Assembly: GCA_016932255.1 (NCBI GenBank)
Contig: JAFGDE010000014.1
Coordinates: 62,001-126,000, forward strand
Direction: 5' to 3'
Origin: Candidatus Saganbacteria bacterium
Lineage (GTDB): Bacteria > Margulisbacteria > WOR-1 > O2-12-FULL-45-9
Length of the DNA stretch: 64,000 bases
Part shown: in pieces, positions 39,622 through 54,010 of the stretch
Position numbering within the stretch: position 1 is the stretch's first letter
Layout of the letters: each line of letters opens with the position of its first letter
Notes under the pieces: model-generated
The model's database searches: none
The model's input: the letters and a program-made list of their open reading frames with translations, nothing else
Told to the model about the DNA's origin: nothing
Position numbers and translations under genes: made by a program

Positions 39622-40610
39622 TTATGGCGGGCGAAATGCGCCGCGACCTTGATCGCCTCGATCAGGCTGTTGGGGTTGGCCCAGCCTTTACCCGCGATAT
39701 CAAAGCCCGTGCCGTGATCGACCGAGGTCCGCACGATCGGCAGTCCAACGGTCACGTTAACTGATTTGTTGAATGATAGAAGCTTGAGCGGGATCAGGCC
39801 CTGGTCGTGGTACATGGCCACCACTAGATCGAACATGCCGATATTGGCCAGATAGAAGATGGCGTCAGGCGAGACCGGCCCATTAACATTGATGCCGAGT
39901 TTTTTGGCTTCGTCAACAGCCGGTTTAATGATCTTGATCTCTTCATCGCCGAACAAACCAGCTTCGCCGGCATGGGGGTTAAGGCCGGCCACGCCGATGC
40001 GCGGTTTCTTGCCCCTCAGTTTGAACAGGGTCTCATGGGCCAGCTTGATCCTGTTGACGATCTTTTTCTTGTCCAGGTGCTTGCTGACATCCTTGAGCGG
40101 CAGATGTGTCGTGACCAGCATGATCCAAAGCGTGTCGGAAACGAACATCATGGCATAGTTCTTGGCATGGGTGCGCGCGGCCAGGATCTCGGTGTGCCCC
40201 TGATATTTATATCCGGCTTTGTGCAAGGATTCCTTATTGATCGGTCCGGTGGCGATGGCGTCTATCTTGCCGTCCAGAGCCAGCTTGACGGCTTTGTCGA
40301 TGTAGTCAAAAGCCGCTTTGCCGGCGGCTTTTGAGACCTGGCTGGTCTTAAGCCTGGGGCTGACGTTGTTCAGGTCAAGCACATCGATCACGCCGCGGCT
40401 GAACTTGGCCTCAGAGACCTTCTTGACCGGGTTGATCTCAATATTAGGGATCTTGGCGACCTTCAGCCCCTGGCGCATGGCCCTGCGGTCGCCGATAACC
40501 AGGCAATTGGCGGTCAATTGGAGTTCCGGGGAAATCAAGGCCTTGGCGCAGACTTCGGGGCCGATGCCGGCCGGATCCCCCATGGTGACGCCGATAATAG
40601 GTCTATCCAC
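39618..40610 (-). CDS. pdxA: 4-hydroxythreonine-4-phosphate dehydrogenase
   Basis: 330-aa NAD-dependent enzyme of pyridoxal-phosphate synthesis. Starts IIGVTMGDPAGIGPEVCAKAL; metal-binding histidines appear in YQGHTEILA, TTHLPLKDV and AMYHDQGLIPLK; and VGLPIVRTSVDHGTGFDIAGKG is the signature near the end. It overlaps the aminotransferase gene by eight bases. Other steps of the DXP-dependent pathway are not in the window. Confidence 0.96.
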   Translation of the reverse strand: MDRPIIGVTMGDPAGIGPEVCAKALISPELQLTANCLVIGDRRAMRQGLKVAKIPNIEINPVKKVSEAKFSRGVIDVLDLNNVSPRLKTSQVSKAAGKAAFDYIDKAVKLALDGKIDAIATGPINKESLHKAGYKYQGHTEILAARTHAKNYAMMFVSDTLWIMLVTTHLPLKDVSKHLDKKKIVNRIKLAHETLFKLRGKKPRIGVAGLNPHAGEAGLFGDEEIKIIKPAVDEAKKLGINVNGPVSPDAIFYLANIGMFDLVVAMYHDQGLIPLKLLSFNKSVNVTVGLPIVRTSVDHGTGFDIAGKGWANPNSLIEAIKVAAHFARHK

Positions 40611-41778
40611 TGTACCTTATCCCTGCCTTTTTCAAGCGCTCAACAGCCTGGCTGATCTTTTCATCGGAATCGACCAGCGCCATCCTGACATAACCTTCAC
40701 CCAGATCGCCAAAGCCGATGCCGGGCGAGAGCACCACATCAGCTTTGTGCAACAGATGTTCGACGAAAGTCATGGCGTTGAAACCGGCGGGCACAGGGAT
40801 CCAGAGATAAAAAGTGGCCATAGGCTTTTTCAATTTCCAGCCCAGCGAGTTCAAACCCTCAACCGCGATGTCCCGCTTCATTTGGTAGCCCAGGCGCATC
40901 TCATCCAAGTATCTCTTTTCTGTCTTGAGCGCGACTGTGCCGGCCTTGACCGTGGCGGCAAAGGGTCCGTAATCCAGATTGGTCTTGATGCATTTAAGAG
41001 AGTTGACCAGCTCTTTGTTGCCGACCGCATATCCCAGGCGCCAGCCGGCCATGCCAAAAGTCTTGGACAGGCTGTGGAATTCAATGCAGACGTCCTTGGC
41101 GCCGGGGATCGAGAGGCAGGAGATGGGTTTCTTGCCCTCGAAATAAAGCTCGGCGTAAGCGAAGTCGTGGATCAGGATCAGGTTGTGCTTCTTGGCAAAA
41201 CGGACCGCTTTCTCAAAAAACTCTTTTGGCGCGGTCGCGGCTGTGGGATTGGTCGGATAGGAAAGAGAGAGGATCTTGGCCTTGTTGGCAATGCTCTCGT
41301 CAATGATATCGAGTTCCGGCAGGAAACCGTTCTTTTCGACTGTCGGCAGGATGATGGGCTCAGCACCCGCCAGGGCCGGACCGCGAAAATGTGAGGGATA
41401 CATCGGCAGAGGCACAAGTAAAGTATCGCCGGGGTTAAGGTAAGCCATATAAAAATGAGCCAGACCTTCCTTGCTGCCAACAAGAGTGGCAACCTCGTCC
41501 TTGTGAATGCTTATGCCGTATTGCTGTTTACACCAGTGGCAGACCGCGGCGATGAAGTCCGGGTCGCCTTCAAAGGACGAGTATTTGTGGCTTTTCGGTT
41601 CGTTTAAAGCCTTGATATGAGCCTCGATCGCGGCTTTGGGTGGCAGGTGGCTGGGCGAGCCGATGGTCAGATCGATCAGGTCTTTGCCCTTGGCGCGCTC
41701 CTCCTCTTTCAGCTTATCGAGCAAAGCGAAAACATAGGTCGGCAGTTTTGAAAGACGTTCAGCCTGTTCGAATTTCAT
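40603..41778 (-). CDS. class I/II aminotransferase (LL-diaminopimelate or related type)
   Basis: 391-aa PLP enzyme. The start is ATG 41778 (MKFEQAERL) with GAGG six bases upstream; the frame opens four residues earlier. Features are SKLPTYVFALLDKLK at the N-terminus as in DapL/AspC-like groups, LPMYPSHFRGP, YPTNPTAATAP, IHDFAYAELYFEGK and the PLP lysine in HSLSKTFGMAGWRLGYAVGN. The specific amino acid is not certain; alanine, aspartate or LL-diaminopimelate are options. Confidence 0.88.
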   Translation of the reverse strand: MKFEQAERLSKLPTYVFALLDKLKEEERAKGKDLIDLTIGSPSHLPPKAAIEAHIKALNEPKSHKYSSFEGDPDFIAAVCHWCKQQYGISIHKDEVATLVGSKEGLAHFYMAYLNPGDTLLVPLPMYPSHFRGPALAGAEPIILPTVEKNGFLPELDIIDESIANKAKILSLSYPTNPTAATAPKEFFEKAVRFAKKHNLILIHDFAYAELYFEGKKPISCLSIPGAKDVCIEFHSLSKTFGMAGWRLGYAVGNKELVNSLKCIKTNLDYGPFAATVKAGTVALKTEKRYLDEMRLGYQMKRDIAVEGLNSLGWKLKKPMATFYLWIPVPAGFNAMTFVEHLLHKADVVLSPGIGFGDLGEGYVRMALVDSDEKISQAVERLKKAGIRYSG

Positions 41779-42622
41779 TATAATCCTCAAACGAATCCTT
41801 GGCGTGATATGAGCTTCGGACGAACGGCCCGGCGATCACTTTCAGGCCCAGGCTTTGGCCGAAAACCTGGAATTCATCATATTCTTCAGGTCGGATATAT
41901 CTGGCGACCGGGACCTGACCCTTGCCCGGTGCCAAATATTGGCCAATGGTCACAATGTCGCAACCAGATTTTTTGAGGTCAGTTATGACTTGAAAAACCT
42001 CGGCTCGACTTTCGCCTAATCCTACCATAAAGCCGCTCTTGGTGTAAATATCGTTCTGCAGCTCTTTAGCTTGTCGCAGTAATTTGAGCGACCTTTGGTA
42101 ATCGGCCTGGGGCCGGATCTCTGAATAAAGCCTCGGCATGGTCTCAACATTATGGTTCAATACAGTCGGTCTAGCTGCCAGGACAGTGCGTAATGGTTTC
42201 GCGTCGCCTTGGAAGTCAGGGATCAGCACTTCGATCCGTAGTTTATTGTTCATGTCCCATAATTTTTTGATCACCGCGGCGAACTGGCCGGCGCCGCCGT
42301 CCGGCAGGTCGTCCCGCGTTACCGAAGTGATAACCACATAATCCAGACCGAGCTTGGCTGCCGCCTGGCTGATGCGTTCGGGTTCTTTGCTGTCCAGCGG
42401 CATGGGCCGGCCGTGCTTGACCCCGCAGTAGCGGCAATTCCTGGTGCAAATATCGCCCAGGATCATGAAGGTCAGGGTGTTTTTGGCAAAGCACTCGCCG
42501 ATATTGGGGCAGCTGGCTGATTCGCACACCGTATGGATAGACGGATCGCCGATCAAAGAACGGATCCGGCGGATATTCTTAAGTTTAGGGACGTTTTTGA
42601 CCAGATGTCGGGGCAGCGCCAC
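41759..42622 (-). CDS. lipA: lipoyl synthase
   Basis: Radical-SAM enzyme that inserts two sulfurs into octanoyl groups on lipoyl domains. The auxiliary cluster is CESASCPNIGEC (three Cys), the SAM cluster is CTRNCRYC, and the C-terminal RSSY motif is in FVRSSYHAKDSF. I favour GTG 42622, giving a 287-aa protein that starts just before the family's conserved N-terminus; an ATG at 42658 is also open. The first bases overlap the 3' end of pilT. lipB is not in view. Confidence 0.94.
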   Translation of the reverse strand: MALPRHLVKNVPKLKNIRRIRSLIGDPSIHTVCESASCPNIGECFAKNTLTFMILGDICTRNCRYCGVKHGRPMPLDSKEPERISQAAAKLGLDYVVITSVTRDDLPDGGAGQFAAVIKKLWDMNNKLRIEVLIPDFQGDAKPLRTVLAARPTVLNHNVETMPRLYSEIRPQADYQRSLKLLRQAKELQNDIYTKSGFMVGLGESRAEVFQVITDLKKSGCDIVTIGQYLAPGKGQVPVARYIRPEEYDEFQVFGQSLGLKVIAGPFVRSSYHAKDSFEDYNEIRTG

Positions 42623-43667
42623 TGAGGATCTTGTCCAGCCTTTCCCGGTTGATTGCATAAGCGATCGCCTCGTCCCGGCTGATCTGGTTGGCCTTATACA
42701 GCTTGGCGATCGAAGAGTCCATCGAGGTCATGCCGAATTTCTGGCCAAGTTCGATCATGGAATAAATATCCTGTGTTGCCCCTTTACGAATGATATTGCG
42801 GATCGCCGGGGTGGCCACCAGGATCTCCTGGGCCAGGACCAGGCCCTGGCCGTCCTTGCGCGGGATCAGCTGCTGCGATAGTATGCCCTGCAAGGTGAGC
42901 GAGAGCATGGAACGGATCTGCGGCTGCTGGTGAGGCGGAAAAACATCGATGATGCGGTCAACCGACTGGACCGCATCCTGAGTGTGCAGGGTCGAGATGA
43001 CCAGATGGCCTGTTTCCGCGGCCGTAATGGCCATCTGGATCGATTCAAGGTCGCGCATTTCTCCGACCAGGATGACATCGGGGATCTGGCGCAGGACGCG
43101 CTTCAGGGCTTCGGCAAAAGAGATCGTATCCAGGCCGACCTCACGCTGCTCGACGACCGAGAGCTTTGGACCGTGCACGAACTCGATCGGATCCTCGATC
43201 GTGATGATGTGGCAGGCGCGATTGGCATTGATCTGGTCGATCATTGAGGCCTGGGTCGTTGATTTGCCGCAGCCGGTAGGGCCGGTCACTAGGATCAGGC
43301 CGCGTTCCAGCGTGGTGAAATCCTTGACGATCGTGGGCATTTTAAGATCTTCAAGCGAGGGTATTTCCCTGGGGATGCGGCGGATCGTGGCCGCGATCGA
43401 ACCTTTCTGCAGGTGCAAATTGACGCGGTAGCGGCTGTGCTGGTCCTCAGCCGCCGTGTCCAGTTCTTTCCAGTTCTCAAATTCCTTGAGCTCGTCAGGC
43501 CGCAGGAAACAATCAAGCAGGCTTCTGATGGCTTCACCCGTCAGCTTGGTCTCCCCTTCCTGGAAAAGGGAGTTGTTGATGCGAAGATACGGCGGATGTC
43601 CGGCGACCAGCAGCAGGTCGGACGCCTTTTTTTGGTTCAATTGAAGCAACAGGCCTTTAATGTCCAT
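42585..43667 (-). CDS. pilT: type IV pilus retraction ATPase PilT
   Basis: 360-aa hexameric ATPase that pulls pili in, giving twitching motility. The N-terminal PAS-like domain has ASDLLLVAGHPPYLRIN; Walker A is GPTGCGKSTT (about 129-138); the Asp box and Walker B are ITIEDPIEFVH and VILVGEMRDLES; the His box is TGHLVISTLHT. The C-terminal AIAYAINRERL resembles the PilT AIRNLIRE region. AAGGAG precedes the start. It is divergent from the prepilin peptidase gene. Confidence 0.95.
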   Translation of the reverse strand: MDIKGLLLQLNQKKASDLLLVAGHPPYLRINNSLFQEGETKLTGEAIRSLLDCFLRPDELKEFENWKELDTAAEDQHSRYRVNLHLQKGSIAATIRRIPREIPSLEDLKMPTIVKDFTTLERGLILVTGPTGCGKSTTQASMIDQINANRACHIITIEDPIEFVHGPKLSVVEQREVGLDTISFAEALKRVLRQIPDVILVGEMRDLESIQMAITAAETGHLVISTLHTQDAVQSVDRIIDVFPPHQQPQIRSMLSLTLQGILSQQLIPRKDGQGLVLAQEILVATPAIRNIIRKGATQDIYSMIELGQKFGMTSMDSSIAKLYKANQISRDEAIAYAINRERLDKILSGAAPTSGQKRP

Positions 43668-43684
43668 TGGCTGACTCCTTGGTT

Positions 43685-43713
43685 TTGACTTTAAATTTGG
43701 TTTACTATATAAT
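43685..43713 (+). promoter_or_regulatory. sigma-70-type promoter of the prepilin peptidase operon
   Basis: TTGACT (43685-43690) and TATAAT (43708-43713) with a perfect 17-base spacer, 46 bases before ATG 43760. Confidence 0.7.
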
Positions 43714-43759
43714 TTCTCTAACGCAAAGTCAAGGTGAGCGCTTTAGGGCGCGGGGATCA

Positions 43760-44554
43760 ATGTTCTATCTGGCCTTTCTTTTTTTGATTGGAACAGTTAT
43801 CGGCAGTTTTCTCAATGTTTGTATTCACCGCATTCCACGCGGGGAGTCGATCGTTTATCCCTCTTCCCACTGCCCTTTTTGCGGCAATAAGCTCAAAGCC
43901 ATTGATTTGGTGCCGTTACTGGGTTTCTTGTTCTTGGGCGGCAAATGCCGTTACTGCCGAAAACAAATATCTTGGCGTTATCCTTTGGTCGAGGGACTGA
44001 CCGGGGCATTGTTCGTCCTTTGCGGACTTCATTTCATAGCCTCGCCCCTCTGGCTGGTCTTCTCACTGGGCTTTGTTTCGGTCATGCTCATGCTTTTTTT
44101 TATCGACCTTGAGCATATGGTCGTGCCCGATACCGTCAGCGTTATTGCCATATTCTGGGGCTATGCTTTTAATTTTATCAGGACATTTTACTTCTTAGAG
44201 AAGGGCAGCGGCTTCAACCCGTTCCTTTCCGCGCTGATCGGCATGCTGCTGGCCTACGGCACGCTTTATTCTATCGGGGTCCTGGGCCAGTTCATCTTTA
44301 AAAAGGAAGCCATGGGTGAGGGGGACCTTTATATCGGGGCGGTCCTGGGCGCTTGCCTGGGCTGGCAGGGCGCGCTGTCCGCTATTTTTCTCGCTTATTT
44401 GCTGGCTGGCGTTACAGCGATCTTCTTGCTGCTGCTGAGGCGGCTTAAATTCGGTGATTATATGCCCTTTGGCCCTGCTCTGGTCAGCGGGGGGCTGCTG
44501 GTCTTTTTCTATGGCCGGCAACTGCTTAATTGGTACTTAAACTTATACTTTTAA
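43760..44554 (+). CDS. pilD: prepilin leader peptidase/N-methyltransferase
   Basis: 264-aa inner-membrane aspartate protease that cleaves and methylates type IV pilins. The start is ATG 43760 after GGGGATCA; a longer frame from 43667 covers the promoter and is rejected. The N-terminal methyltransferase part has GSFLNVCIHRIPRGES and two CxxC pairs (CPFCG, CRYCRK) for zinc. The protease aspartates are in FIDLEHMVVPD and GEGDLYIGAVLG. It is followed at short distance by ftsB. Confidence 0.94.
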   Translation: MFYLAFLFLIGTVIGSFLNVCIHRIPRGESIVYPSSHCPFCGNKLKAIDLVPLLGFLFLGGKCRYCRKQISWRYPLVEGLTGALFVLCGLHFIASPLWLVFSLGFVSVMLMLFFIDLEHMVVPDTVSVIAIFWGYAFNFIRTFYFLEKGSGFNPFLSALIGMLLAYGTLYSIGVLGQFIFKKEAMGEGDLYIGAVLGACLGWQGALSAIFLAYLLAGVTAIFLLLLRRLKFGDYMPFGPALVSGGLLVFFYGRQLLNWYLNLYF

Positions 44555-44560
44555 AATGCA

Positions 44561-44821
44561 ATGAAACGATACGGCCTATTATTGTTTATATTGCTGGTCC
44601 TGTACTTTATTTTTTTGATACGTCAGGATATAATTGACAATCTGGAGCTTAAGCGCGAGCAATCACGTCTTGAGACCAGCCTTGACCGCGAAAAGGTATT
44701 GGGCAGAGGGCTGCGGCAGAGATTGGACGCCCTCAAACAGGACAGCGAGATCGAGAAATTAGCCAGGCTGAGGCTGGGCCTGGTCAAAAAAGACGAGACA
44801 GCTTTTAAAATAATAAAATAA
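44561..44821 (+). CDS. ftsB: FtsB/DivIC-like septum formation initiator
   Basis: 86-aa bitopic protein: a short cytoplasmic start, one membrane helix (LLLFILLVLYFIFLI, residues 5-19), a coiled coil (25-60) and the family end DSEIEKLARLRLGLVKKDETAFKI. It acts in the divisome with FtsL and FtsQ. It sits six bases after pilD. Confidence 0.86.
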   Translation: MKRYGLLLFILLVLYFIFLIRQDIIDNLELKREQSRLETSLDREKVLGRGLRQRLDALKQDSEIEKLARLRLGLVKKDETAFKIIK

Positions 44822-44847
44822 TATCTTAACCGCAGGGGGTGAAAGAG

Positions 44848-45252
44848 TTGCCGATAGAGATCGGATCAGAGATCGAAGGAAAAGTAACGGGCATCGCTAA
44901 TTTCGGTGCATTCATTGAATTGCCTGAAACAAACGTCGGGCTGGTGCATATTTCGCAGATAGCCGACGCTTACGTAACGGATGTTAGCAAACACCTTAAG
45001 GTCGGAGATATCGTCAAGGTCAAGGTTCTGGGCATGGCCAAGCAGGGTAAGTATGACCTGTCAATCAAGCAGGTCGGCAAGCCCAGCTGGCAGCAGCAAG
45101 CGCCCAAGCGCAAACCGCGGGACCAGAAAGACAGACCTCAGCCAGGGACTTTTGAAGATAAAATCACTAAGTTCCTCAAACAAAGCGAGGAAAAGCTGCA
45201 GGATTGGCGCAAGAACCTGGATTCCAAACAAGGGGTTAGGAAGAAACGCTAA
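44848..45252 (+). CDS. S1 domain RNA-binding protein (YabR/general stress protein 13 type)
   Basis: 134-aa protein with one S1 OB-fold domain in residues 3-75 (IGSEIEGKVTGIANFGAFIEL, then GLVHISQIADAYV and LKVGDIVKVKVLG), followed by a basic Pro/Lys-rich tail. I prefer TTG 44848 because GGGGG stands eight bases before it and homologues start at this point; GTG 44839 is in frame just upstream. It lies next to ftsB, as in Firmicutes. It is followed directly by the tRNA-Leu island. Confidence 0.85.
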   Translation: MPIEIGSEIEGKVTGIANFGAFIELPETNVGLVHISQIADAYVTDVSKHLKVGDIVKVKVLGMAKQGKYDLSIKQVGKPSWQQQAPKRKPRDQKDRPQPGTFEDKITKFLKQSEEKLQDWRKNLDSKQGVRKKR

Positions 45253-45258
45253 CATTCT

Positions 45259-45308
45259 GCCCGGGTGGTGGAATGGCAGACCTGCCTGCCGGCAGGCAGG
45301 CACAAGGG
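45259..45308 (+). pseudogene. 5' fragment of tRNA-Leu interrupted by a 20-bp palindrome
   Basis: The 22 bases at 45259-45280 and the following block from 45301 (CACAAGGGACTT) are identical to the first 34 bases of the intact tRNA-Leu at 45633. Between them stands CCTGCCTGCCGGCAGGCAGG (45281-45300), a perfect palindrome, with no target duplication. After GGGACTT the tRNA match ends. The sequence reads in frame into the GIY-YIG gene. Confidence 0.8.
45281..45300. repeat. 20-bp perfect palindrome, copy 1
   Basis: CCTGCCTGCCGGCAGGCAGG, inserted in the D-arm region of the tRNA-Leu fragment. An identical copy lies at 48841-48860. Translated in one frame it gives PACRQAG. Confidence 0.9.
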
Positions 45309-45352
45309 ACTTTGTTTTTTTAGTAAGTGGACGAGGATCGGGGTGTGGCGGG

Positions 45353-45598
45353 ATGATCTTTTATCTTTATATCCTTCAAAGTTTGAAGGATAATAATATT
45401 TATATTGGTATTACTTCCAATTTAGAGGAACGCTTAAAAAGACACAATGCTGGGTACGAAAGAGCGACTAAAGGAAGAATACCATTCAAGTTAATACATT
45501 CGGAAAGTTTTGCAAATCGGATCGAAGCGCGAAATAAAGAAAAATACCTCAAAAGCGGGTTCGGTCGCGAGATGATCCGAAAGCTCCTGCTACAATAA
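45353..45598 (+). CDS. single-domain GIY-YIG endonuclease-like protein
   Basis: 81-aa protein. FYLYILQSLKDNNIYIGITSN holds the GIY-YIG signature (LYI...YIG), with catalytic Arg in LEERLKRHNAG and Glu in EKYLKSGFG. It consists of the nuclease module alone, as in UPF0213-type proteins. The start is ATG 45353; the open frame continues upstream through the tRNA fragment, giving a fusion-like reading. It stands between two tRNA-Leu copies, so it may be part of a mobile cassette (inference). Confidence 0.87.
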   Translation: MIFYLYILQSLKDNNIYIGITSNLEERLKRHNAGYERATKGRIPFKLIHSESFANRIEARNKEKYLKSGFGREMIRKLLLQ

Positions 45599-45613
45599 TC
45601 ATTTCCTCAGTGG

Positions 45614-45619
45614 TATAAT
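45614..45619 (+). promoter_or_regulatory. -10 box (TATAAT) of tRNA-Leu
   Basis: TATAAT 13 bases before the mature tRNA 5' end at 45633; no good -35 is visible. Confidence 0.45.
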
Positions 45620-45632
45620 CCGTGATAATCAT

Positions 45633-45715
45633 GCCCGGGTGGTGGAATGGCAGACACAAGGGACTTAAAATCCCTCGGCCGCAAAGCCGTGCCGGTTCAA
45701 ATCCGGCCCCGGGCA
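45633..45715 (+). tRNA. tRNA-Leu (anticodon UAA)
   Basis: 83-base type II tRNA. Acceptor GCCCGGG pairs with CCCGGGC. The anticodon arm AGGGA-CTTAAAA-TCCCT gives anticodon UAA (codon UUA). A long variable arm (CGGCCGCAAAGCCGT) marks leucine, and the T arm is CCGGTTCAAATCCGG. CCA is not encoded. It is the intact member between two fragments. Confidence 0.95.
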
Positions 45716-45745
45716 GTAAGGCTTAAACGGCAAAGGACGTGATTA

Positions 45746-48700
45746 ATGGCCGTTCGAGATATGTTTGACAAATATCTTCGATCTGTTTCCTCCAAGTTTT
45801 CACACAAAGAAACATCCGAAATGGGCTATCGCCCGGACTTTGAAATATTACTAAAAGGGATATTTGAGTCCATCAAGGTCAAGCGGATTGATAACGACCC
45901 GAAAGCCAGCGAAGGAAACCGGCCGGACTTTGTTTTGTACAAAGAAGTGCCGATCCTTTATATTGAAACAAAAGATATAGGGGTTTCCCTGGATAAGGTT
46001 GAGAAGTCGGAGCAAATGGCTAGGTACTTCGGCTATGCCAATCTGGTACTGACCGATTATCTCGAATTCCGTTTTTACAGGAACGGGAAGGCGTACGGAC
46101 GTCCGATAAAAATCGGCAATCATAACAGTAAAAAACGAAGTATCGATCCCCTGATAGAAAACTATGAAAGTTTAGCCAGGACATTGATTGATTTCGCGCA
46201 ATCACACAAAGAACCGATCAAATCAGGCGAGCACCTGGCCAAGATCATGGGTGGGAAAGCGCAAAGGATCAGGGATAATATACGTTATTTTCTGTCGGTC
46301 GAGTCAGAAAAAAATGAAGATATCCAGCGCGTCTATGAGGCGATCAAGAAACTGCTGGTTCACGACCTGAAAACCGATGCCTTTGCCGATATGTACGCCC
46401 AAACACTGGTTTACGGCCTGTTTGTCGCCCGCTATTACGATGATACTCCGGAAACATTCTCTCGCGAGGAAGCGCGAGAGCATATGCCGGCGTCTAACCC
46501 GTTCTTAAGACATTTTTTCGACCATATCGCGGGCCCCAGTTTTGATAAGCGTCTTAAATACATTGTTGATGAGCTTTGCTTGGTGTTTCAGCACTCGAAC
46601 GTTAAGCAGCTCATTGAACAGTACATGAAAGGTGCTGACCCGGTGATACATTTTTACGAAGATTTCCTTAAGGAATACGATCCGGTCTTGCGCAAGAAAA
46701 TGGGGGCTTATTATACGCCGTTGCCGGTGGTACGCTTCATTGTCCGCGCGGTCGATCATCTTTTGGAGAAAGAGTTCGGCCTGGCCGGAGGGCTTGCCGA
46801 CACAGCCAAGCTGGCCAATGGCAGGCATCGAGTTCAGGTGCTTGATCCAGCGGCCGGGACAGGGACATTCATCAGTGCGGTTATCCGGATGATTTATGAG
46901 CGGCTGAAAAAGCAAGGGCAAGAAGGCCGCTGGACGGCGTATGTGCACAACGACCTGTTGCCGCGCCTGCACGGATTTGAGCTGATGATGGCGCCGTACA
47001 CCATCGCGCATCTGAAATTGAGCCTGGCTTTTAAGCAGACCGGCTTCTGGAAATTCCATCGCCGGTTGGGCATTTACCTGACCAATTCCCTGGAAAAGAG
47101 CGACCATCAGCAGACCGAACTCGCTTTTGGTTTTGCCGAAAGCATCGCGGAAGAGGCAAGGGAAGCTGATAAAGTTAAGAACGAAACACCGATCATGGTC
47201 GTTGTTGGCAATCCACCGTATTCGGGCGAATCTAGCAATGCGGGCTACAAGGGTAACGATGTTTATAAAGTTGAACCAACAGGAGGCAAACTTCGTGAGC
47301 GCAATTCAAAATGGCTAAATGATGATTATGTAAAATTTATTCGTTATGCAGAGAGTATAATTGAGAAAAATGGTGAAGGTGTTGTTGCTATGATCACCGC
47401 ACATGGTTATATCGATAATCCGACTTTTCGTGGTATGCGCTATCATTTAATGAAGACTTTCAAGGATATTTATATATTTGATTTACATGGTAATGCTAAT
47501 AAAAAAGAGGTGGCGCCAGAAGGTGGTAAGGATGAAAATGTCTTTGATATAAAAACCGGTGTAGCGATTATTATTGCAGTAAAGCAAAAAATCAAAACTA
47601 ATAAATTAGCAAATATACATCGCGCAGATTGTTTTGGGTTGCGCGAGAATAAGTTCCAAAATTTGGGCAAAAACAAAATAGACAAAATGCAATGGATATC
47701 TGTTAAGCCATCTATGCCGAATTATGAATGGGTGGCAAGAGATAGGCAAATAGAATCAGAATACTTGAAAGGCTTTTCCGTAAAAGCTCTTTTTGATTTA
47801 AATAATACCGGGATAGTTACTAAAAGAGATGAATTGTGTATTCAAGATACAAGTGACTCTATGTGGCAGGCGGTGCAGGATTTTCTTAATCTTTCAGAAG
47901 CGGATGTCCGTCGAAAATATCATCTCCCAGCCGATGTTCGCGATTGGAAGTATGAATGGGCAAAAAAGGATTTGTTAGTAAGTGGGCCATCGAAGCACAA
48001 TATAACCCCAATAAATTATCGCCCATTTGACAGGAAATATCTTTATTACACTGGCAGAGCCAGGGGATTTGTTGGCTGGCCAGTTGAAAGAATTACTAAG
48101 CATTTTATTGCTGGGGATAATATTGCTTTAGTCGCGGTAAACCGATCGCCAGCAAAGACCCCTGCTTCTTATTGTTTTGTTACTAAGTCCATTATTTCTA
48201 ATGGTTATATTCGTTCTGATAGTGTAAGTATAGATACGATATTTCCTCTTTATCTTTATCTCGAGGATGGCGCTAAACAACCCAATTTCAAACGTGAAAT
48301 AGTTGCTAGTATTGAAGATTTAATTGGCCGTGTCTTGCCCGAAGATATTTTTGATTATGTCTACGCTATTTTGTATTCCCCAAGTTACCGTAAGAAATAT
48401 AATGAATTCTTGAAAACTGATTTCCCTCGAATTCCATATCCTAAAAACAAAAAGACATTTAAGGCGCTGGTAGCATTGGGGGAAGAATTGTGTGGGTTGC
48501 ATCTGCTGGAATTACCCAAAGTAAATAAGTTTATCACTACATATCCAGTTGCCGGTTCCAATGAGGTCGAAAAGATATCTTATAAAGATGGTAAAGTATT
48601 TATTAACAAGAAGCAATATTTTGGTGGAGTGCCGGAGATTGCCTGGAATTTCTACATCGGCGGCTATCAGCCAGCGCAAAAGTGGCTTAAGGATCGCAAG

Positions 48701-48817
48701 AGGCGGACCTTAACCAATGCGGACATAGAACACTATCAAAAAATGATCGTAGCGCTGACAGAAACCGATCGGATCATGAAAGAGATCGATAAAGTTGGCG
48801 TTCCGAGTGTTAAATAA
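45746..48817 (+). CDS. single-polypeptide restriction-modification enzyme (type IIG/ISP-like)
   Basis: 1023-aa protein joining nuclease, N6-adenine methylase and recognition domains. The N-terminal PD-(D/E)xK nuclease reads RPDFVLYKEVPILYIETKD (about residues 59-77). Methylase motif I is DPAAGTGTF (about 367) and motif IV NPPY (about 489). The C-terminal part contains WNFYIGGYQPAQKWLKDRK, typical of type ISP specificity domains. No helicase domain is present, unlike full type ISP enzymes. Base composition falls to AT-rich from about 47290 to 48640, covering the recognition region. It is flanked by intact tRNA-Leu and a tRNA-Leu 3' fragment. Confidence 0.9.
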   Translation: MAVRDMFDKYLRSVSSKFSHKETSEMGYRPDFEILLKGIFESIKVKRIDNDPKASEGNRPDFVLYKEVPILYIETKDIGVSLDKVEKSEQMARYFGYANLVLTDYLEFRFYRNGKAYGRPIKIGNHNSKKRSIDPLIENYESLARTLIDFAQSHKEPIKSGEHLAKIMGGKAQRIRDNIRYFLSVESEKNEDIQRVYEAIKKLLVHDLKTDAFADMYAQTLVYGLFVARYYDDTPETFSREEAREHMPASNPFLRHFFDHIAGPSFDKRLKYIVDELCLVFQHSNVKQLIEQYMKGADPVIHFYEDFLKEYDPVLRKKMGAYYTPLPVVRFIVRAVDHLLEKEFGLAGGLADTAKLANGRHRVQVLDPAAGTGTFISAVIRMIYERLKKQGQEGRWTAYVHNDLLPRLHGFELMMAPYTIAHLKLSLAFKQTGFWKFHRRLGIYLTNSLEKSDHQQTELAFGFAESIAEEAREADKVKNETPIMVVVGNPPYSGESSNAGYKGNDVYKVEPTGGKLRERNSKWLNDDYVKFIRYAESIIEKNGEGVVAMITAHGYIDNPTFRGMRYHLMKTFKDIYIFDLHGNANKKEVAPEGGKDENVFDIKTGVAIIIAVKQKIKTNKLANIHRADCFGLRENKFQNLGKNKIDKMQWISVKPSMPNYEWVARDRQIESEYLKGFSVKALFDLNNTGIVTKRDELCIQDTSDSMWQAVQDFLNLSEADVRRKYHLPADVRDWKYEWAKKDLLVSGPSKHNITPINYRPFDRKYLYYTGRARGFVGWPVERITKHFIAGDNIALVAVNRSPAKTPASYCFVTKSIISNGYIRSDSVSIDTIFPLYLYLEDGAKQPNFKREIVASIEDLIGRVLPEDIFDYVYAILYSPSYRKKYNEFLKTDFPRIPYPKNKKTFKALVALGEELCGLHLLELPKVNKFITTYPVAGSNEVEKISYKDGKVFINKKQYFGGVPEIAWNFYIGGYQPAQKWLKDRKRRTLTNADIEHYQKMIVALTETDRIMKEIDKVGVPSVK

Positions 48818-48830
48818 ACTCTAAACCATA

Positions 48831-48875
48831 CCGGTTCAAACCTGCCTGCCGGCAGGCAGGTCCGGCCCTCGGCAG
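48831..48875 (+). pseudogene. 3' fragment of tRNA-Leu interrupted by a 20-bp palindrome
   Basis: CCGGTTCAAA (48831-48840), then the palindrome (48841-48860), then TCCGGCCCTCGGCA (48861-48874). The outer parts match the T arm and 3' acceptor of tRNA-Leu with two changes (CCCTCGGC for CCCCGGGC). It lies 13 bases after the restriction-modification gene, the place expected for a distal attachment-like repeat. Confidence 0.78.
48841..48860. repeat. 20-bp perfect palindrome, copy 2
   Basis: CCTGCCTGCCGGCAGGCAGG, identical to 45281-45300, inserted in the T loop of the 3' tRNA-Leu fragment. Confidence 0.9.
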
Positions 48876-48886
48876 ACTTTAACGGA

Positions 48887-50155
48887 TCAAAGCTTGGTTT
48901 CAAGCAGGAGCGGGGTCAACCCGAGCCAGGCAGCCGCTCGTTGCGTGTCCTGGCCGCATTCTTTGCAAACAACCCCGATATAGGTCTTATCAAAATCCTC
49001 GACCAGGCAACTGCCTGCTCCCGGCTTGTCCAATAAAAGATCGAATGGCAGGACTCCGGCGTCGATCTCGTCCTCAGCGACGGACAAGCATAAGCGGAGC
49101 AGAACGTTCTCCAGCTGTTTGACGTTGCCCGGCCAGCTGTAATTGGCCAGCTGTTCCTTGGCTTTGGCAGAGAGGTGTTTCTTGAGGCCGAAACGTCTGT
49201 TGTTACCGGCCATAAAATGGTCGGCTAGCAGGCCGATGTCGGAAGGTCTTTCGCGCAGCGGCGGCAGGTCAATAGCTATCTGCGAAAAGTGGTCGAAAAC
49301 CTCACGGTCCTTTTCTTCAAGGCCGGGCTGACAGCCGCCGATCAATCTGGAATTAATAGGGATGTCGCTATTGCTGCCCTGGCGGAAGAATCTGCCGGAT
49401 TTGATGACCGCGAAAACATCCGGGAGCAGCAGTTCTAAATTATTGATAAAAAGGCTGCCGCTTTCGCTTCTTTCCAGCAAGCCGGCCTGAGCCTCCAAGG
49501 CGACAGAGCTGCTGCCCTTGCTCCAGCCGAATAGGGCGGCCTTGATAGCGGCAGGGCTTTGGCTTGGCGCTAAATCATAGATCAAAAAAGGGCCTGATTC
49601 AGGAGAGATCCGTTTATGGATCATTCTGGCCACGAGATATTTTTCCGTGCCTGTTTCTCCACAAATAAGCACGCGCTGGTCCGGGGTGACCGACAGGATC
49701 AATTTCCTGAGTTGAGTGATCTTTTCGCTCTGGCCGATCAGTTCATCTTCGGCCGCCATCAGCTTGCGTTGTACTGCCCGGCTTTCACCCAAGAGATTCC
49801 TTTTCCTCAAGGTCTGTTCGGTCAGCTTGAGGATATGATCGACATCAAAAGGCTTGACCACGTAATCCCTGGCGCCGTGCCGGATAGCTTCGCTGGCTTT
49901 TTGAACGTCATTGACTGCGGTGACCATGATGACCTCGAGCGAGGGATCGATCTGTTTCAGCCGTTTAAGGGTCTCCAGCCCGTCCATGCCGGGCATGCGG
50001 ATGTCAAGATAGGCCAGGTCGATCTGCTGGTCGGTCAGTATCTTAAGGGCGGCTTCGCCTGAAGCGGCAAAATAGAGCTGATAGTTATCTGCCAGGATCA
50101 GGTTAAACGATTCCCTGATCGAGCTTTCATCATCTATCAGCAGGATGTTAGGCAT
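48887..50155 (-). CDS. NtrC-like regulator with degenerate AAA+ domain
   Basis: 422-aa protein with receiver, AAA+ and HTH layout. The receiver is intact (Asp51 in LAYLDIRMPGMDGLE). The AAA+ domain is not: Walker A reads GETGTEKY (166-173) where GESGTGKE is normal, the GAFTGA loop that touches sigma-54 is replaced by KGSSSVAL, and Walker B reads GSLFINNLE (233-241) without the Asp-Glu pair. The downstream part keeps PPLRERPSDI and WPGNVKQLEN, and the C-terminal HTH region is QRAAAWLGL. It cannot be a normal sigma-54 activator. It overlaps the upstream small gene by eight bases. Confidence 0.87.
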   Translation of the reverse strand: MPNILLIDDESSIRESFNLILADNYQLYFAASGEAALKILTDQQIDLAYLDIRMPGMDGLETLKRLKQIDPSLEVIMVTAVNDVQKASEAIRHGARDYVVKPFDVDHILKLTEQTLRKRNLLGESRAVQRKLMAAEDELIGQSEKITQLRKLILSVTPDQRVLICGETGTEKYLVARMIHKRISPESGPFLIYDLAPSQSPAAIKAALFGWSKGSSSVALEAQAGLLERSESGSLFINNLELLLPDVFAVIKSGRFFRQGSNSDIPINSRLIGGCQPGLEEKDREVFDHFSQIAIDLPPLRERPSDIGLLADHFMAGNNRRFGLKKHLSAKAKEQLANYSWPGNVKQLENVLLRLCLSVAEDEIDAGVLPFDLLLDKPGAGSCLVEDFDKTYIGVVCKECGQDTQRAAAWLGLTPLLLETKL

Positions 50156-50483
50156 GCCCGAAGCGATCGATAATGATCAGGGCCTGTTTGCGCAGCTGGG
50201 CGTCGCTCATAATACCGCGGGTGATCGTTTCGATCATTGGTTTAGCGCTTTTTGCTGCTGCCAGTGAGGCGCCAAATTCGGCTGCCAAGGCCATTTTAAC
50301 GATCTTGGTCATAGCCTGCTCGATGGTGTCATCCTTTTTCAGTTCATTGGCCAGGCCGCGCTCAAACAACTCCAGCTTGGCTATTTCTTCTGTTTCCAGT
50401 TCTGCGCCAACGTCCTTGCCCAGAATGAGCGGCAGGAATTCCTTGGCCGGGGTCCAGGTGGTTTTTCTGATTTCAGTTGTCAT
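50148..50483 (-). CDS. hypothetical protein, 111 aa, under a sigma-54 promoter
   Basis: I do not recognise it with certainty. The start is ATG 50483, directly after GGAGGTGAGC; an in-frame GTG at 50498 is less likely. The product is soluble and helical, with WTPAKEFLPLILGKDVGAEL near the start and MIETITRGIMSDAQLRKQAL near the end. It is transcribed with the degenerate NtrC gene (eight-base overlap), so it may be a partner of that regulator. Confidence 0.7.
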   Translation of the reverse strand: MTTEIRKTTWTPAKEFLPLILGKDVGAELETEEIAKLELFERGLANELKKDDTIEQAMTKIVKMALAAEFGASLAAAKSAKPMIETITRGIMSDAQLRKQALIIIDRFGHA

Positions 50484-50509
50484 TTTGCTCACCTCCACGC
50501 CTATGATAC

Positions 50510-50525
50510 AGCAACCTTATTGCCA
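50510..50525 (-). promoter_or_regulatory. sigma-54 (-24/-12) promoter
   Basis: On the minus strand the site is TGGCAATAAGGTTGCT. GG and GC are ten bases apart as required, and TGGCA and TTGCT match the consensus elements. Transcription would start near 50499, just ahead of the ribosome-binding site of the 111-aa gene. Confidence 0.72.
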
Positions 50526-50625
50526 GGCGTGGTATGCCACTTTAGCATAGAAATATGTGCAAATCAACACGAATCAGAGTAAGTAATGCACGTAGACTTG
50601 TGCAAAATTGGGGTATGCAGCGGGC

Positions 50626-51048
50626 TCAGTTATATGCGGTCAGTTTAAAATTACCCAGGACCTTGTTATGGCTGCGGGACATGATAATGCCGAGGTAAAT
50701 TCCGTTGGCTAGGGGCCGGCCGAACTCGCGCAGGCCGTCCCAGACGACCTTGTTCAATTCGCCTTTGCCGCCCGGCTCGCCTTTTTGAAAAGACATTTTT
50801 TTGATGATCTCTCCGCCGCTGCTGACGATGATCATATCGATGTCCGCATCTTCGGACAAAGTGTACTGGATAACGACATCGTCCTGCCGCGCCGGAGAAA
50901 AGGGGCTGGGCCAGACCAGAGGAAAGTCAACGATGCGCAACGGACCGCCGGCGGCCTCGGCTGAAACGAGCGTTACTCTAGCTTCGCTCGTGGCCAAAGC
51001 CGGGCTTATCAGGGTGATTGTGATCAGTAAAACAAGCAGTCTTTTCAT
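50626..51048 (-). CDS. secreted FlgD-type Ig-like domain protein
   Basis: 140-aa exported protein starting at ATG 51048 (GGGTGG site), with signal peptide MKRLLVLLITITLISPALA. The mature part reads like a FlgD Ig-like or secretion-tail domain: WPSPFSPARQDDVVIQYTLSE, IDMIIVSSGGEIIKKM, then VVWDGLREFGRPLANGIYLG. Such domains usually end larger secreted proteins, but here it stands alone. The role is unknown. It lies 50 bases after the intact ntrC-like gene on the same strand. Confidence 0.78.
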   Translation of the reverse strand: MKRLLVLLITITLISPALATSEARVTLVSAEAAGGPLRIVDFPLVWPSPFSPARQDDVVIQYTLSEDADIDMIIVSSGGEIIKKMSFQKGEPGGKGELNKVVWDGLREFGRPLANGIYLGIIMSRSHNKVLGNFKLTAYN

Positions 51049-51098
51049 TGTCGTGCCACCCGGTATATTATCGCCATATCTTGGTCCGGATTGCAAGT

Positions 51099-52472
51099 TT
51101 ATTCCAGGCCCAGTTTTTTCTCCAGGTTTATCAGGGTGTTGCGGTGGATGCCCAGCATCTTCGCGGCATGGCCTTTTCTGCCGCCGGCTTTATCCAGGGC
51201 GCGTTTAATGAATTCAGCCTCAAAACGCTGGACCGCCTTATAGAGGTCAACGTCCCGCTCTTTGGCCGGAGCGGCTTGATCGCCCTTGATCTCATGGGGC
51301 AGGTGTTCGGCGGTGATCTGCTGGCCCTTGTTCAGCACGACTAGCCTTTCGACCAGATTCTCAAGTTCACGGATATTGCCCGGCCAATCATATCGTTCCA
51401 GCAGAGTCATGACTTCTTTGCTGAAGCCTTTGATCTTCTTGCCCAGATTGCGGTTGTATTTATCCAGGAAGTAATTGGCCAGCAAGGGGATATCTTCTTG
51501 CCGTTGTCTCAACGGCGGCAGGTGGATCGGGATCACGTTCAGGCGATAATAGAGGTCTTCGCGGAATTTATATTTCTTGATGGCCGAGCGCAGGTCCGAG
51601 TTGGTCGCTGCGATGATGCGAACATCCACAGGCGTAGTGTAACCGGCGCCGATACGTTCGATCTCCCTTTCCTGGATGGCCCGCAGCAGCTTGGCCTGCA
51701 TGGCCAGGGGCATGTTGCCGATCTCATCAAGGAACAGGGTGCCGCCGCCCGCGATCTCGAACTTGCCGATCTGCCGTTGGGTCGCGCCGGTGAAAGAACC
51801 GCGTTCATGGCCGAAGAGCTCGGATTCCAGCAGGGCTTCGGGGATCGCGGCGCAGTTGACCGCGACGAACAAGCGGTCCTTGCGCGGACTGCGGTTATGG
51901 ATAGCCCGAGCGACCAGCTCTTTGCCGGTCCCGGATTCACCGGTGATCAGAATAGTGGCATTGCTTTTAGCCACGTCATCGATCACACGAAAGACCTCGC
52001 GGATCTCCTTGCTCTTGCCCACGATCTTCTCGAACTGATAATCCTGTTCGATCAATTGTTTAAGGGAGATGTTCTGCTGCTGCAGCTGCCTTTTTTCCAG
52101 GACCTTTTCCACCTGTTCCTGGAGCGCTTCGATGTCAAAGGGTTTAGTGATGTAGTCATAGGCGCCGATGCGGATGGCCTCGACCGCTTTCTTAACCATG
52201 ATCACGGCTGTTACCATGATCACTTCGATCGAGTCGTCGTGGCCTTTGATCAGTTTCAGGACCTCGATGCCATCGATCTCAGGCAGCCTGATGTCCAGTA
52301 GCACCAGGTCAATGGGCTGGTTGCGGACAACCTCAATGGCCTCTTTGCCGGACTTGGCCAGTTTGACGTTGTAATTCTCGCTCAGCAGCATCGCCATGGA
52401 TTCGCGCATGCTTTTCTCGTCATCGACAACGAGTATATTGGCCTTAGGCTGCTTATCTTTCTTTTTTATCAT
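51099..52472 (-). CDS. sigma-54-dependent response regulator (NtrC family)
   Basis: 457-aa intact activator. Receiver Asp60 is in LVLLDIRLPEIDGIEV; Walker A GESGTGKE at 178-185; sigma-54 contact loop GSFTGA at 225-230 (Ser for Ala in GAFTGA); Walker B GGTLFLDEIG; R-finger region PLRQRQEDIPLLANYFL; Fis-type HTH RKGHAAKMLGIHRNTLINLE. It overlaps the rpoN stop by four bases, so activator and sigma factor are translated together. The partner kinase is not adjacent. Confidence 0.95.
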   Translation of the reverse strand: MIKKKDKQPKANILVVDDEKSMRESMAMLLSENYNVKLAKSGKEAIEVVRNQPIDLVLLDIRLPEIDGIEVLKLIKGHDDSIEVIMVTAVIMVKKAVEAIRIGAYDYITKPFDIEALQEQVEKVLEKRQLQQQNISLKQLIEQDYQFEKIVGKSKEIREVFRVIDDVAKSNATILITGESGTGKELVARAIHNRSPRKDRLFVAVNCAAIPEALLESELFGHERGSFTGATQRQIGKFEIAGGGTLFLDEIGNMPLAMQAKLLRAIQEREIERIGAGYTTPVDVRIIAATNSDLRSAIKKYKFREDLYYRLNVIPIHLPPLRQRQEDIPLLANYFLDKYNRNLGKKIKGFSKEVMTLLERYDWPGNIRELENLVERLVVLNKGQQITAEHLPHEIKGDQAAPAKERDVDLYKAVQRFEAEFIKRALDKAGGRKGHAAKMLGIHRNTLINLEKKLGLE

Positions 52473-53812
52473 TTTATCTGTCTCTCCGGCGCCGTCGGCA
52501 GGCCCAGCTCCTTGCGGTAATAAGCCACGGTGCGCCGGTCGATCCTGGCGCCCAGCTGTTTGAGCTTTTCGGTCAGCTGGCTGTCGGACAGCGGCGCGGC
52601 CTTGTCCTCGTTCCTAACGGTCTCGACGAGCAGGGCTTTGGTCCTGGCAACGGTCAGCCCTTTGGGGCCCCGCGGACAGAGCAATTTTAACGGGAATAGG
52701 CCCTGCGGCGTCTGGATATATTTCTGTGTCACGGTGCGGCTGATGGTCGAAGGATGCAACCCGAACTCATCAGCCAGGCTTTTCTGGGTCAGCGGGACCA
52801 GCCAGGTTATGCCTTTTTCCAAAAAAGCCTTTTGGGTCCCGATTATTTTTCGTATGATCTGTTCCAAAGTTTCACTTCGCTTGTGAAAATCTTCCAGCAG
52901 TTGTTTGGCCTTTTTCAGCTTGTCTTTGAGGAATTCTTTGGTCTTTTCGTCTGTCTTGGGGTCATCCAGCATATTGAGGTAGCGCTGGGAAATGTTGATG
53001 ACCGGGCCGTACTTGGTCTCAAGGTTGATGACCTGATAGCCGTTGTCCGTCTTTTCCACGGCAAAGGAGGGGATGACATGCCTGGTCTGGCTGCCAAAAG
53101 AGCTGCCCGGGTTCGGCTCCAGGTTGCTCTTGATGAAATTGGCGATCTCGACCACGCCCTTGACCGGTATGTTCAGGGCTTTGGCCACCTTGTCATAGTT
53201 CTGTTCGCTCAGATCGCCCAGATGTTTTTCCACTGCCTGCCGCAGGACTTCCTGGAGGGCTTCGTTCTCAAAAGAATGGGCCTCGATCTGGATCAGCAGG
53301 CATTCCTTGAGGTCGCGCGCGCCGACCCCTTCCGGCTCAAAGGCCTGGATAAGCTTCAAAGCCTTATCCACGGTCGGCCTCGAGACATTGAACTCCGCCA
53401 TGATCTTTTCTCTCAACCTTGGATAATTGATGACATAGCCGAAATCGTCGATATTCTCGATAATATGCCGGGCCATGCCGGCCTGGACCTCTTCAATGTC
53501 TTCCAGCGCAAGCTGTTCCAGCAAATGGTCGATCAGGCTTTTTTCCACATTGCCGATATTCTCCAGGCCGGGCAGCTCGTTAAAGTCAGCCTCTTTTCTG
53601 ATCTTCTTGTCCGAGGTCAAGTAGCGGATCAACTCAACGTACTCGTCGCGGCGCTCGACCTCGAGCACAGGGTTTTCTTCGGCTTCTTTGGCGATCTGTT
53701 CGATCAGTTCGGGGTAGGGCAGGCTGAGCACTTTAAGCATCTGGAGCAGTCTGGGGGATAATAAAAGCTCCAGAGACTGCCTCAACTCAGGTTGAAGACG
53801 CATTTCTGCCAT
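52469..53812 (-). CDS. rpoN: RNA polymerase sigma-54 factor
   Basis: 447-aa sigma factor for -24/-12 promoters. Region I is Leu/Gln-rich (LRQSLELLLSPRLLQMLKVLSL, about 9-30); an acidic region II follows; the core-binding and HTH segments occupy 80-390 (SLADEFGLHPSTISRTVTQKYIQTPQGLFPL); the RpoN box is RIDRRTVAYYRKELGLP near the end, a slight variant of ARRTVAKYRE. There is no ribosome-binding site; TATAAT ends six bases before ATG. Confidence 0.96.
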   Translation of the reverse strand: MAEMRLQPELRQSLELLLSPRLLQMLKVLSLPYPELIEQIAKEAEENPVLEVERRDEYVELIRYLTSDKKIRKEADFNELPGLENIGNVEKSLIDHLLEQLALEDIEEVQAGMARHIIENIDDFGYVINYPRLREKIMAEFNVSRPTVDKALKLIQAFEPEGVGARDLKECLLIQIEAHSFENEALQEVLRQAVEKHLGDLSEQNYDKVAKALNIPVKGVVEIANFIKSNLEPNPGSSFGSQTRHVIPSFAVEKTDNGYQVINLETKYGPVINISQRYLNMLDDPKTDEKTKEFLKDKLKKAKQLLEDFHKRSETLEQIIRKIIGTQKAFLEKGITWLVPLTQKSLADEFGLHPSTISRTVTQKYIQTPQGLFPLKLLCPRGPKGLTVARTKALLVETVRNEDKAAPLSDSQLTEKLKQLGARIDRRTVAYYRKELGLPTAPERQIK

Positions 53813-53826
53813 GCTATAATTATAGC
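53813..53826. promoter_or_regulatory. palindromic bidirectional -10 region between rpoN and tRNA-fMet
   Basis: GCTATAATTATAGC is a perfect 14-bp palindrome containing TATAAT on both strands: minus for rpoN (six bases before ATG 53812) and plus for tRNA-fMet (16 bases before 53837). No clear -35 was found on either side. Confidence 0.55.
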
Positions 53827-53836
53827 ACGTTGGCGA

Positions 53837-53913
53837 CGCGGGGTGGAGCAGTCTGGTAGCTCGTCAGGCTCATAACCTGAAGGCCGTGGGTTCAAATCCC
53901 ACCCCCGCTACCA
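53837..53913 (+). tRNA. initiator tRNA-fMet (CAU)
   Basis: 77-base tRNA with encoded CCA. The first base C does not pair with T72 (CGCGGGG/CCCCGCT), the usual initiator mismatch position. The anticodon arm is TCAGG-CTCATAA-CCTGA: only two of the three consecutive G:C pairs of typical initiators are kept, the first being A:U. The T arm is GTGGG-TTCAAAT-CCCAC. Confidence 0.95.
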
Positions 53914-53918
53914 AATTT

Positions 53919-54010
53919 AGAAAATCGAAAGTAGAAAATAGTAAATAGGGGGAAACAAATAATATCTGGATCTCCTATTATCGATTGTCGATTTTCTATT
54001 GTCTATTCTT
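53919..54010. repeat. AT-rich imperfect inverted repeat (AAAATCGA/TAGAAAATAG units)
   Basis: The left arm 53919-53949 (AGAAAATCGAAAGTAGAAAA...) and right arm 53974-54010 are imperfect inverse copies built of TCGA and TAGAAAAT words. The right arm runs over the stop of the HI0933-family gene. A related half unit is at 63482-63507. Confidence 0.5.

Follow-up and report, generated by a model that had tools for sequence, protein, structure and literature searches.

A GIY-YIG nuclease cassette in Candidatus Saganbacteria: a probable homing-type element of bacterial tRNA genes

How does a bacterial chromosome come to carry one leucine tRNA gene three times in a row, once intact and twice in pieces, with a nuclease gene before the intact copy and a restriction-modification gene behind it? 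This arrangement lies in a stretch of 64,000 nucleotides from Candidatus Saganbacteria (GCA_016932255.1, contig JAFGDE010000014.1, positions 62,001 to 126,000, hereafter the window). tRNA genes are classic landing sites of mobile DNA, normally by way of integrases, but the gene recurrently linked to tRNAs here encodes a GIY-YIG nuclease of 81 amino acids (aa), and not an integrase. The most probable answer, in our judgement, is a free-standing chromosomal GIY-YIG cassette of homing type that breaks a tRNA gene and leaves a functional copy. Such a tRNA-targeting mobile element is apparently undescribed; no prior description of such a cassette was found in the open-access full-text literature.

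The gene order given by the original prediction (5' fragment, GIY-YIG gene, intact tRNA-Leu(UAA), restriction-modification gene and 3' fragment, all on the plus strand) is correct, and the locus and its flanks read as follows:

44839..45252, plus strand: gene for an S1-domain RNA-binding protein (PF00575); the synteny S1, tRNA-Leu(UAA), response regulator runs across the class
45258..45280, plus strand: 5' tRNA-Leu fragment, part 1 (tRNA bases 1-22 and one upstream base), identical to the intact copy
45281..45300, plus strand: perfect 20-bp palindrome CCTGCCTGCCGGCAGGCAGG in the D loop of the 5' fragment, without target duplication
45301..45312, plus strand: 5' tRNA-Leu fragment, part 2, where homology restarts and then stops at the first anticodon base
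45353..45598, plus strand: GIY-YIG nuclease gene, 81 aa, one domain (PF01541, 8.5e-16)
45614..45619, plus strand: TATAAT between the GIY-YIG stop codon and the intact tRNA, from its sequence a probable -10 element of that tRNA
45632..45716, plus strand: intact tRNA-Leu(UAA) (ARAGORN; Rfam 58.7 bits)
45746..48817, plus strand: Type IIG restriction-modification gene, one polypeptide (PF18135, PF02384; PADLOC)
48831..48840, plus strand: 3' tRNA-Leu fragment, part 1 (T arm up to GGTTCAAA)
48841..48860, plus strand: second copy of the identical palindrome (20 bp), interrupting the T loop of the 3' fragment
48861..48875, plus strand: 3' tRNA-Leu fragment, part 2 (T arm and acceptor strand, two substitutions)
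48887..50155, minus strand: gene for a response regulator / sigma-54 activator (PF00072, PF00158; synteny)

Both fragments derive from this very tRNA rather than from an unrelated one, tRNA-Leu(UAA) outscoring the other 39 tRNAs of the genome for each of them: the 5' fragment is identical at 35/35 positions (score 70 of 70, with Leu-GAG next at 38), and the 3' fragment scores 40 of 50 (Thr-GGT, 34). The original prediction had recognized the 5' fragment and the GIY-YIG gene; the homology of the former proves to extend to the first anticodon base, and the latter starts at 45353. It had overlooked that both fragments are interrupted by one identical palindrome, which breaks the 5' fragment after tRNA base 22. 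The 20-mer occurs 22 times in this 1.67 Mb genome and its 18-bp core 23 times, against none for a reversed control pattern and no chance match in 100 shuffles; with some 22 copies in 1.67 Mb, the landing of two in two tRNA fragments is not due to chance. Two of the genomic copies border the element and its nuclease gene. A group I or group II intron carrying an endonuclease within tRNA-Leu was ruled out, as no intron family of either type was matched up to E=1 (Rfam, positions 40000-54000).

What stands at this place in related genomes? The orthologous site was traced through the S1 gene, and the empty site (S1 gene, single tRNA-Leu, response regulator) that had been proposed as a check was found in relatives. 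In 18 related genomes an intact tRNA-Leu(UAA) begins within 20 nt of the S1 stop codon, and 14 of them have the response-regulator gene at most 85 nt further on, so that at least 14 genomes hold a conserved empty site with the S1 gene as its left and the response-regulator gene as its right flank. A member of the same family (G008) has a GIY-YIG gene (74% aa identity), then tRNA-Leu and directly after it the response regulator, the restriction gene being absent; the S1 contig of that genome terminates in a palindrome-broken 5' tRNA-Leu fragment, the locus being therefore divided between contigs. The site is also taken by an independent, decayed occupant in a genome of another family (G021), with a 5' fragment bearing two palindromes, a decayed GIY-YIG start, an intact tRNA and a remnant of the 3' fragment, while a 3' fragment bearing two palindromes, unaccompanied by a restriction gene, stands in G025. 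Since empty, GIY-only and independently occupied sites all occur, occupancy is patchy and has arisen more than once, and the GIY-YIG insertion can be separated from that of the restriction gene. The tRNA-Leu(UAA) of this S1 locus varies as well: it is inverted in G015 (L138), and clearly different alleles stand in G002 (L130), G025 (L143) and G020 (L150), which looks like replacement of the tRNA on the spot.

Which of the two genes belongs with the tRNA? The restriction-modification gene does encode one polypeptide, as had been read from its sequence, with nuclease, N6-methylase and specificity parts (PADLOC REase_MTase_IIG, PDLC03610, 6e-291; PF02384, PF18135); it shows an N-terminal PD...ETK motif, identified by eye, then DPAAGTGTF, NPPY and a Type ISP C-terminal specificity domain. 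Among 57 genomes of the phylum, close homologues exist in G008 and G010 only, where they adjoin hisI (G008:C235; G010:C1:501442-504360) and not a tRNA, and no recurrent linkage of the gene to tRNAs was seen. The hisI-side position is vacant in this genome and in nine other relatives examined; the surroundings of hisI offer this Type IIG gene a second place of insertion. The first half of the gene matches G008 at 90% (aa) and 82% (nt), against only 75-78% (nt) for the S1 gene, and the remainder is diverged, a pattern that fits horizontal sharing of a Type IIG enzyme whose specificity part varies. As it is absent from the G008 cassette and located at hisI elsewhere, the restriction gene is best taken as an independent passenger that would have entered later, between the intact tRNA and the 3' piece. 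Passengers at that position are not unique to the window, another locus (L020) having an unrelated gene, with no Pfam match, between intact tRNA and 3' fragment.

The original prediction had made this gene the heart of a minimal mobile defence module using tRNA-Leu, with the tRNA 3' end as attachment site of an island devoid of integrase and the GIY-YIG gene as a second, stacked insertion. The intact tRNA and the 3' fragment do lie on opposite sides of the restriction gene, and relatives do have an empty site. However, the G008 and G010 homologues sit beside hisI, palindrome-bearing 3' fragments occur at the same tRNA without any restriction gene in G025 and, as a remnant, in G021, so that the 3' fragment need not be its attachment site, and a 3' fragment broken by a palindrome and altered by two substitutions would be unusual for a functional attachment repeat. 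The absence of an integrase had been rightly noted, the GIY-YIG and restriction genes being the sole genes between the fragments. An island of the integrase type was rejected for want of an integrase and because the restriction homologues lie elsewhere, and the defence-module explanation as a whole seems very improbable; the GIY-YIG gene is instead the core of a widespread cassette.

How widespread it is appears from a whole-genome search of 57 phylum members, together with 80 named loci from many phyla, which yielded 170 unique GIY-YIG genes. The named loci had been retrieved with a Leu/Arg-like subset of GIY-YIG sequences and are not a random sample, a selection from which the phylum set is free. 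An intact tRNA lies within 150 nt on the same strand in 98/170 cases (74 downstream, 30 upstream), and on the opposite strand in none of the 170, where chance would give about 0.6 per side; the phylum set alone gives 42/82. The tRNAs concerned represent at least 15 amino-acid types, in Margulisbacteria, Omnitrophota, Elusimicrobiota, Patescibacteria, Ignavibacteriota and Bacteroidota. A search for other tRNA genes followed by GIY-YIG or restriction-modification genes had been suggested; recurrent linkage holds for the former and was not seen for the latter in 57 genomes. From GIY-YIG stop codon to tRNA the median gap is 3 nt, and the reading frame ends at or inside the tRNA in 30 cases; in L024, L025, L022 and others, the stop codon falls within the next tRNA gene and the final codons are tRNA sequence.

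The broken pieces recur as well. In 48 of the 74 cases with a downstream tRNA, the GIY-YIG gene comes after a 5' fragment of that very tRNA, against 0.7 expected from a wrong-isotype null (above its 99th percentile), and strong palindromes occupy 27/74 of the fragment-side stretches, as opposed to 38/1500 (2.5%) control windows. Homology, where it restarts beyond an insertion, does so almost to the base, and the seamless insertion points are located in D, anticodon or T loops. Because 3' fragments are also found at many loci, the full form of the cassette is 5' piece, GIY-YIG gene, intact tRNA, optional passenger and 3' piece, and the locus in the window is an instance of it. Recurrence on this scale and the empty sites of relatives bear out the earlier suggestion that the tRNA is a real insertion target. 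The arrangement exists in G010, a genome of one contig (L030), as well as in the isolates Ekhidna lutea (L050) and Flavivirga rizhaonensis (L053) and is thus not an assembly artefact, even though most records are metagenome assemblies. A phage or plasmid element was rejected: two scans of viral contigs found nothing, and phage and plasmid GIY-YIG matches are all less than 60% identical, the one plasmid match inspected lying in a suf operon.

The active-site residues Y6, Y17, R27, H31 and E63 are all present in the window protein and nearly invariant in tRNA-linked genes (96/96, 96/96, 97/97, 97/97 and 97/98), and nonsynonymous divergence from the G008 orthologue (dN 0.16) is far below synonymous divergence (dS 1.1-2.9), which on sequence grounds shows purifying selection. 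The GIY-YIG phylogeny, built on 86 columns, partly tracks tRNA isotype (37 changes against 55.3 when shuffled, 0/200), and the nearest gene from another phylum shares the isotype in 21/98 cases, against 8.0 when shuffled (maximum of 1000 shuffles 21). On the putative cutting of the cassette-less allele and copying into it, this cross-phylum match bears only indirectly.

The cassette might then work as follows. Within a stem-loop or close to one, tRNA genes are probably cut by the 81-aa nuclease; repair would then draw on a cassette-bearing copy and place the nuclease gene between the broken 5' piece and one complete tRNA. The host, here with its intact gene, would thereby retain a functional tRNA, and the element would persist in an essential gene. 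Broken pieces are left on one side or on both, short palindromes or hairpins inserted exactly in the tRNA loops mark them, and in the window the Type IIG gene would have joined afterwards. While the architecture, its repetition at many isotypes and the patchy occupancy of a site with an empty state can be read directly, cleavage of tRNA genes and mobility are properties that we infer for this nuclease, and several points tell against the proposal. The intact tRNA still has the presumed target sequence, which leaves self-immunity unexplained; isotype switches are frequent in the phylogeny; 72/170 GIY-YIG genes have no detected tRNA alongside, and those inspected often have inverted repeats around them, at other sites; tandem tRNAs broken by hairpins exist with no GIY-YIG gene as well (L286, L287, L297, L299, L300). 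Moreover, no separate DNA-recognition domain such as that of I-TevI or the Seg proteins is recognizable in the single-domain protein, and its predicted structure (predicted local distance difference test score 94) has its closest folds in UPF0213 and in Slx1, a structure-specific nuclease, rather than in I-TevI. The term "homing-type" is used for this reason, with no assignment to the I-TevI/Seg family.

Could the nuclease recognize structure rather than sequence? A fold of the UPF0213/Slx1 kind leaves room for structure-specific cutting, and an Slx1-like enzyme might attack hairpins, among them the stem-loops that tRNA genes extrude, with palindromes or tandem tRNA copies filling the breaks in the loops and tRNA genes being struck as hairpin-dense DNA. 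The match to Slx1 (template-modelling score about 0.7), the small single-domain protein and the insertions in tRNA loops of many isotypes would agree with this. At the 57 palindrome sites read (in G000, G001, G004, G008 and G015), where insertion occurred with no target duplication, inverted-complementary flanks were present at ten, about a sixth, exceeding the 95th percentile of mismatched flanks, but 47/57 have no significant flanking hairpin. That the phylogeny follows isotype, even across phyla, suggests instead sequence- or homology-dependent targeting, and purely structural recognition seems rather unlikely.

The GIY-less broken tRNAs raise another possibility, in which recombination creates spare tandem tRNA copies that gather palindromes as they decay, GIY-YIG genes that are mobile by other means surviving there because the spare copy is dispensable. 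This genome has such copies, a tRNA-Ala with a D-loop hairpin (L286, G000:C16:47300-48600) and a tRNA-Gln whose T loop holds two TCCCG...CGGGA hairpins (L287, G000:C4:46300-47116), as do relatives, where in L297, L299 and L300 a palindrome-bearing 5' tRNA-Leu fragment is directly followed by an intact tRNA-Leu; palindrome insertion and the GIY-YIG gene are therefore not strictly coupled. (The outer pieces of L297 have matching acceptor strands, GCCGCTG/CAGCGGC, around a tRNA with a different acceptor stem.) The window fragments are also nearly identical to the intact copy, as duplication would have it, although with nearly one allele in all three, duplication and import of a similar tRNA look alike. 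Duplication and decay, on the other hand, explain neither the same-strand exclusivity (0/170 opposite), nor the 3-nt median gap, nor the clustering by isotype. They also fail at L299, whose broken piece has the anticodon stem of the lineage's tRNA-Leu(CAG), as in the G000 tRNA, and whose intact tRNA has a different one; with the broken piece native and the intact tRNA a different allele, the latter is probably the newcomer. We regard this explanation as improbable, and the homing-type cassette as the better account.

Several of the dispersed palindromes sit in a GGAACCTGCGAGTGAACCTCGCGGTTCC-like hairpin repeat, and within reading frames the palindrome encodes PACRQAG. T-loop copies of palindrome A were absent from tRNA fragments of other genomes, the remaining matches being due to chance. 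GIY-YIG number was rejected as the driver of palindrome number: the positive correlation across the phylum (Spearman 0.50) does not hold within the class (0.20, p=0.29), and phylogeny thus confounds it. Similarity to the window GIY-YIG gene is correlated with palindrome A in a suggestive way (0.43, p=0.015). GIY-YIG genes away from tRNAs (L087, L107, L109, L115, L120, L066; L088, L102, L103, L110; L114; L105, L119) are often enclosed by short inverted repeats, for example CCCGTTAGAG...CTCTAACGGG or CCTGTTAAAT...ATTTAACAGG, and several seem inserted at a start codon, with ATGA at both ends, restoring that of the host gene.

The cassette would explain the many small "GIY-YIG family" genes found beside tRNAs and the broken tRNA copies next to intact ones, and perhaps the origin of PACRQAG-type palindromes in these genomes; its relatives in cultured Bacteroidota (the two isolates named above) bring it within reach of cultivation-based work.

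How does it compare with known systems? In the REP/RAYT system (repetitive extragenic palindromes and their associated tyrosine transposases), palindromes are dispersed and one nuclease gene, a Y1 tyrosine transposase, is bordered by the same palindrome. Dispersed palindromes likewise border the nuclease gene here, the differences being a GIY-YIG enzyme in place of the Y1 transposase and the tRNA context. It is conceivable, if doubtful, that a single-domain GIY-YIG nuclease and matching short palindromes form a new, REP/RAYT-like class of minimal prokaryotic mobile elements, inserting into stem-loops and above all tRNA loops, with a replacement tRNA keeping the host alive and with GIY-less tRNA-palindrome units and dispersed palindromes as non-autonomous forms. 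With free-standing GIY-YIG homing endonucleases the cassette shares a GIY-YIG domain with its active-site residues, a place next to the target gene and known empty alleles. The phage GIY-YIG enzyme SegB cleaves tRNA genes internally, at the motif RAWTSGAAC (PMC13096335); in our reading, this motif is complementary to GTTCSAWTY, the core of the T loop, which is among the palindrome locations here. Like SegB of phages T4 and T6 (PMC2988022, PMC13096335), the window gene is free-standing, lies beside tRNA genes, has relatives at a wide range of isotypes and is associated with tRNA duplication; unlike this protein of phage tRNA clusters (T-even), it is chromosomal, has a single domain of 81 aa and is fused directly to one tRNA, in front of it or behind it, in the company of broken tRNA pieces and of palindromes in the loops. 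The GIY-YIG insertions in rRNA genes of the Candidate Phyla Radiation (PMC11270868) also match neither group I nor group II introns and also concern structural RNA genes, mostly at stem-loops; that study covers rRNA, never mentions tRNA, and its authors judged the GIY-YIG genes to stand outside homing spread. In fungal mitochondria, mobile open reading frames (ORFs) in atp6, atp9, cox2 and nad3 (PMC3630166) likewise split a gene with an endonuclease ORF and supply a duplicate of the lost end, the native end staying downstream as a relic. They differ in their setting, mitochondrial protein genes (with a LAGLIDADG enzyme in the example), whereas the present cassette occupies bacterial tRNA genes, duplicates either end and has palindromes in the relics. 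These fungal mobile ORFs and phage SegB are its closest analogues.

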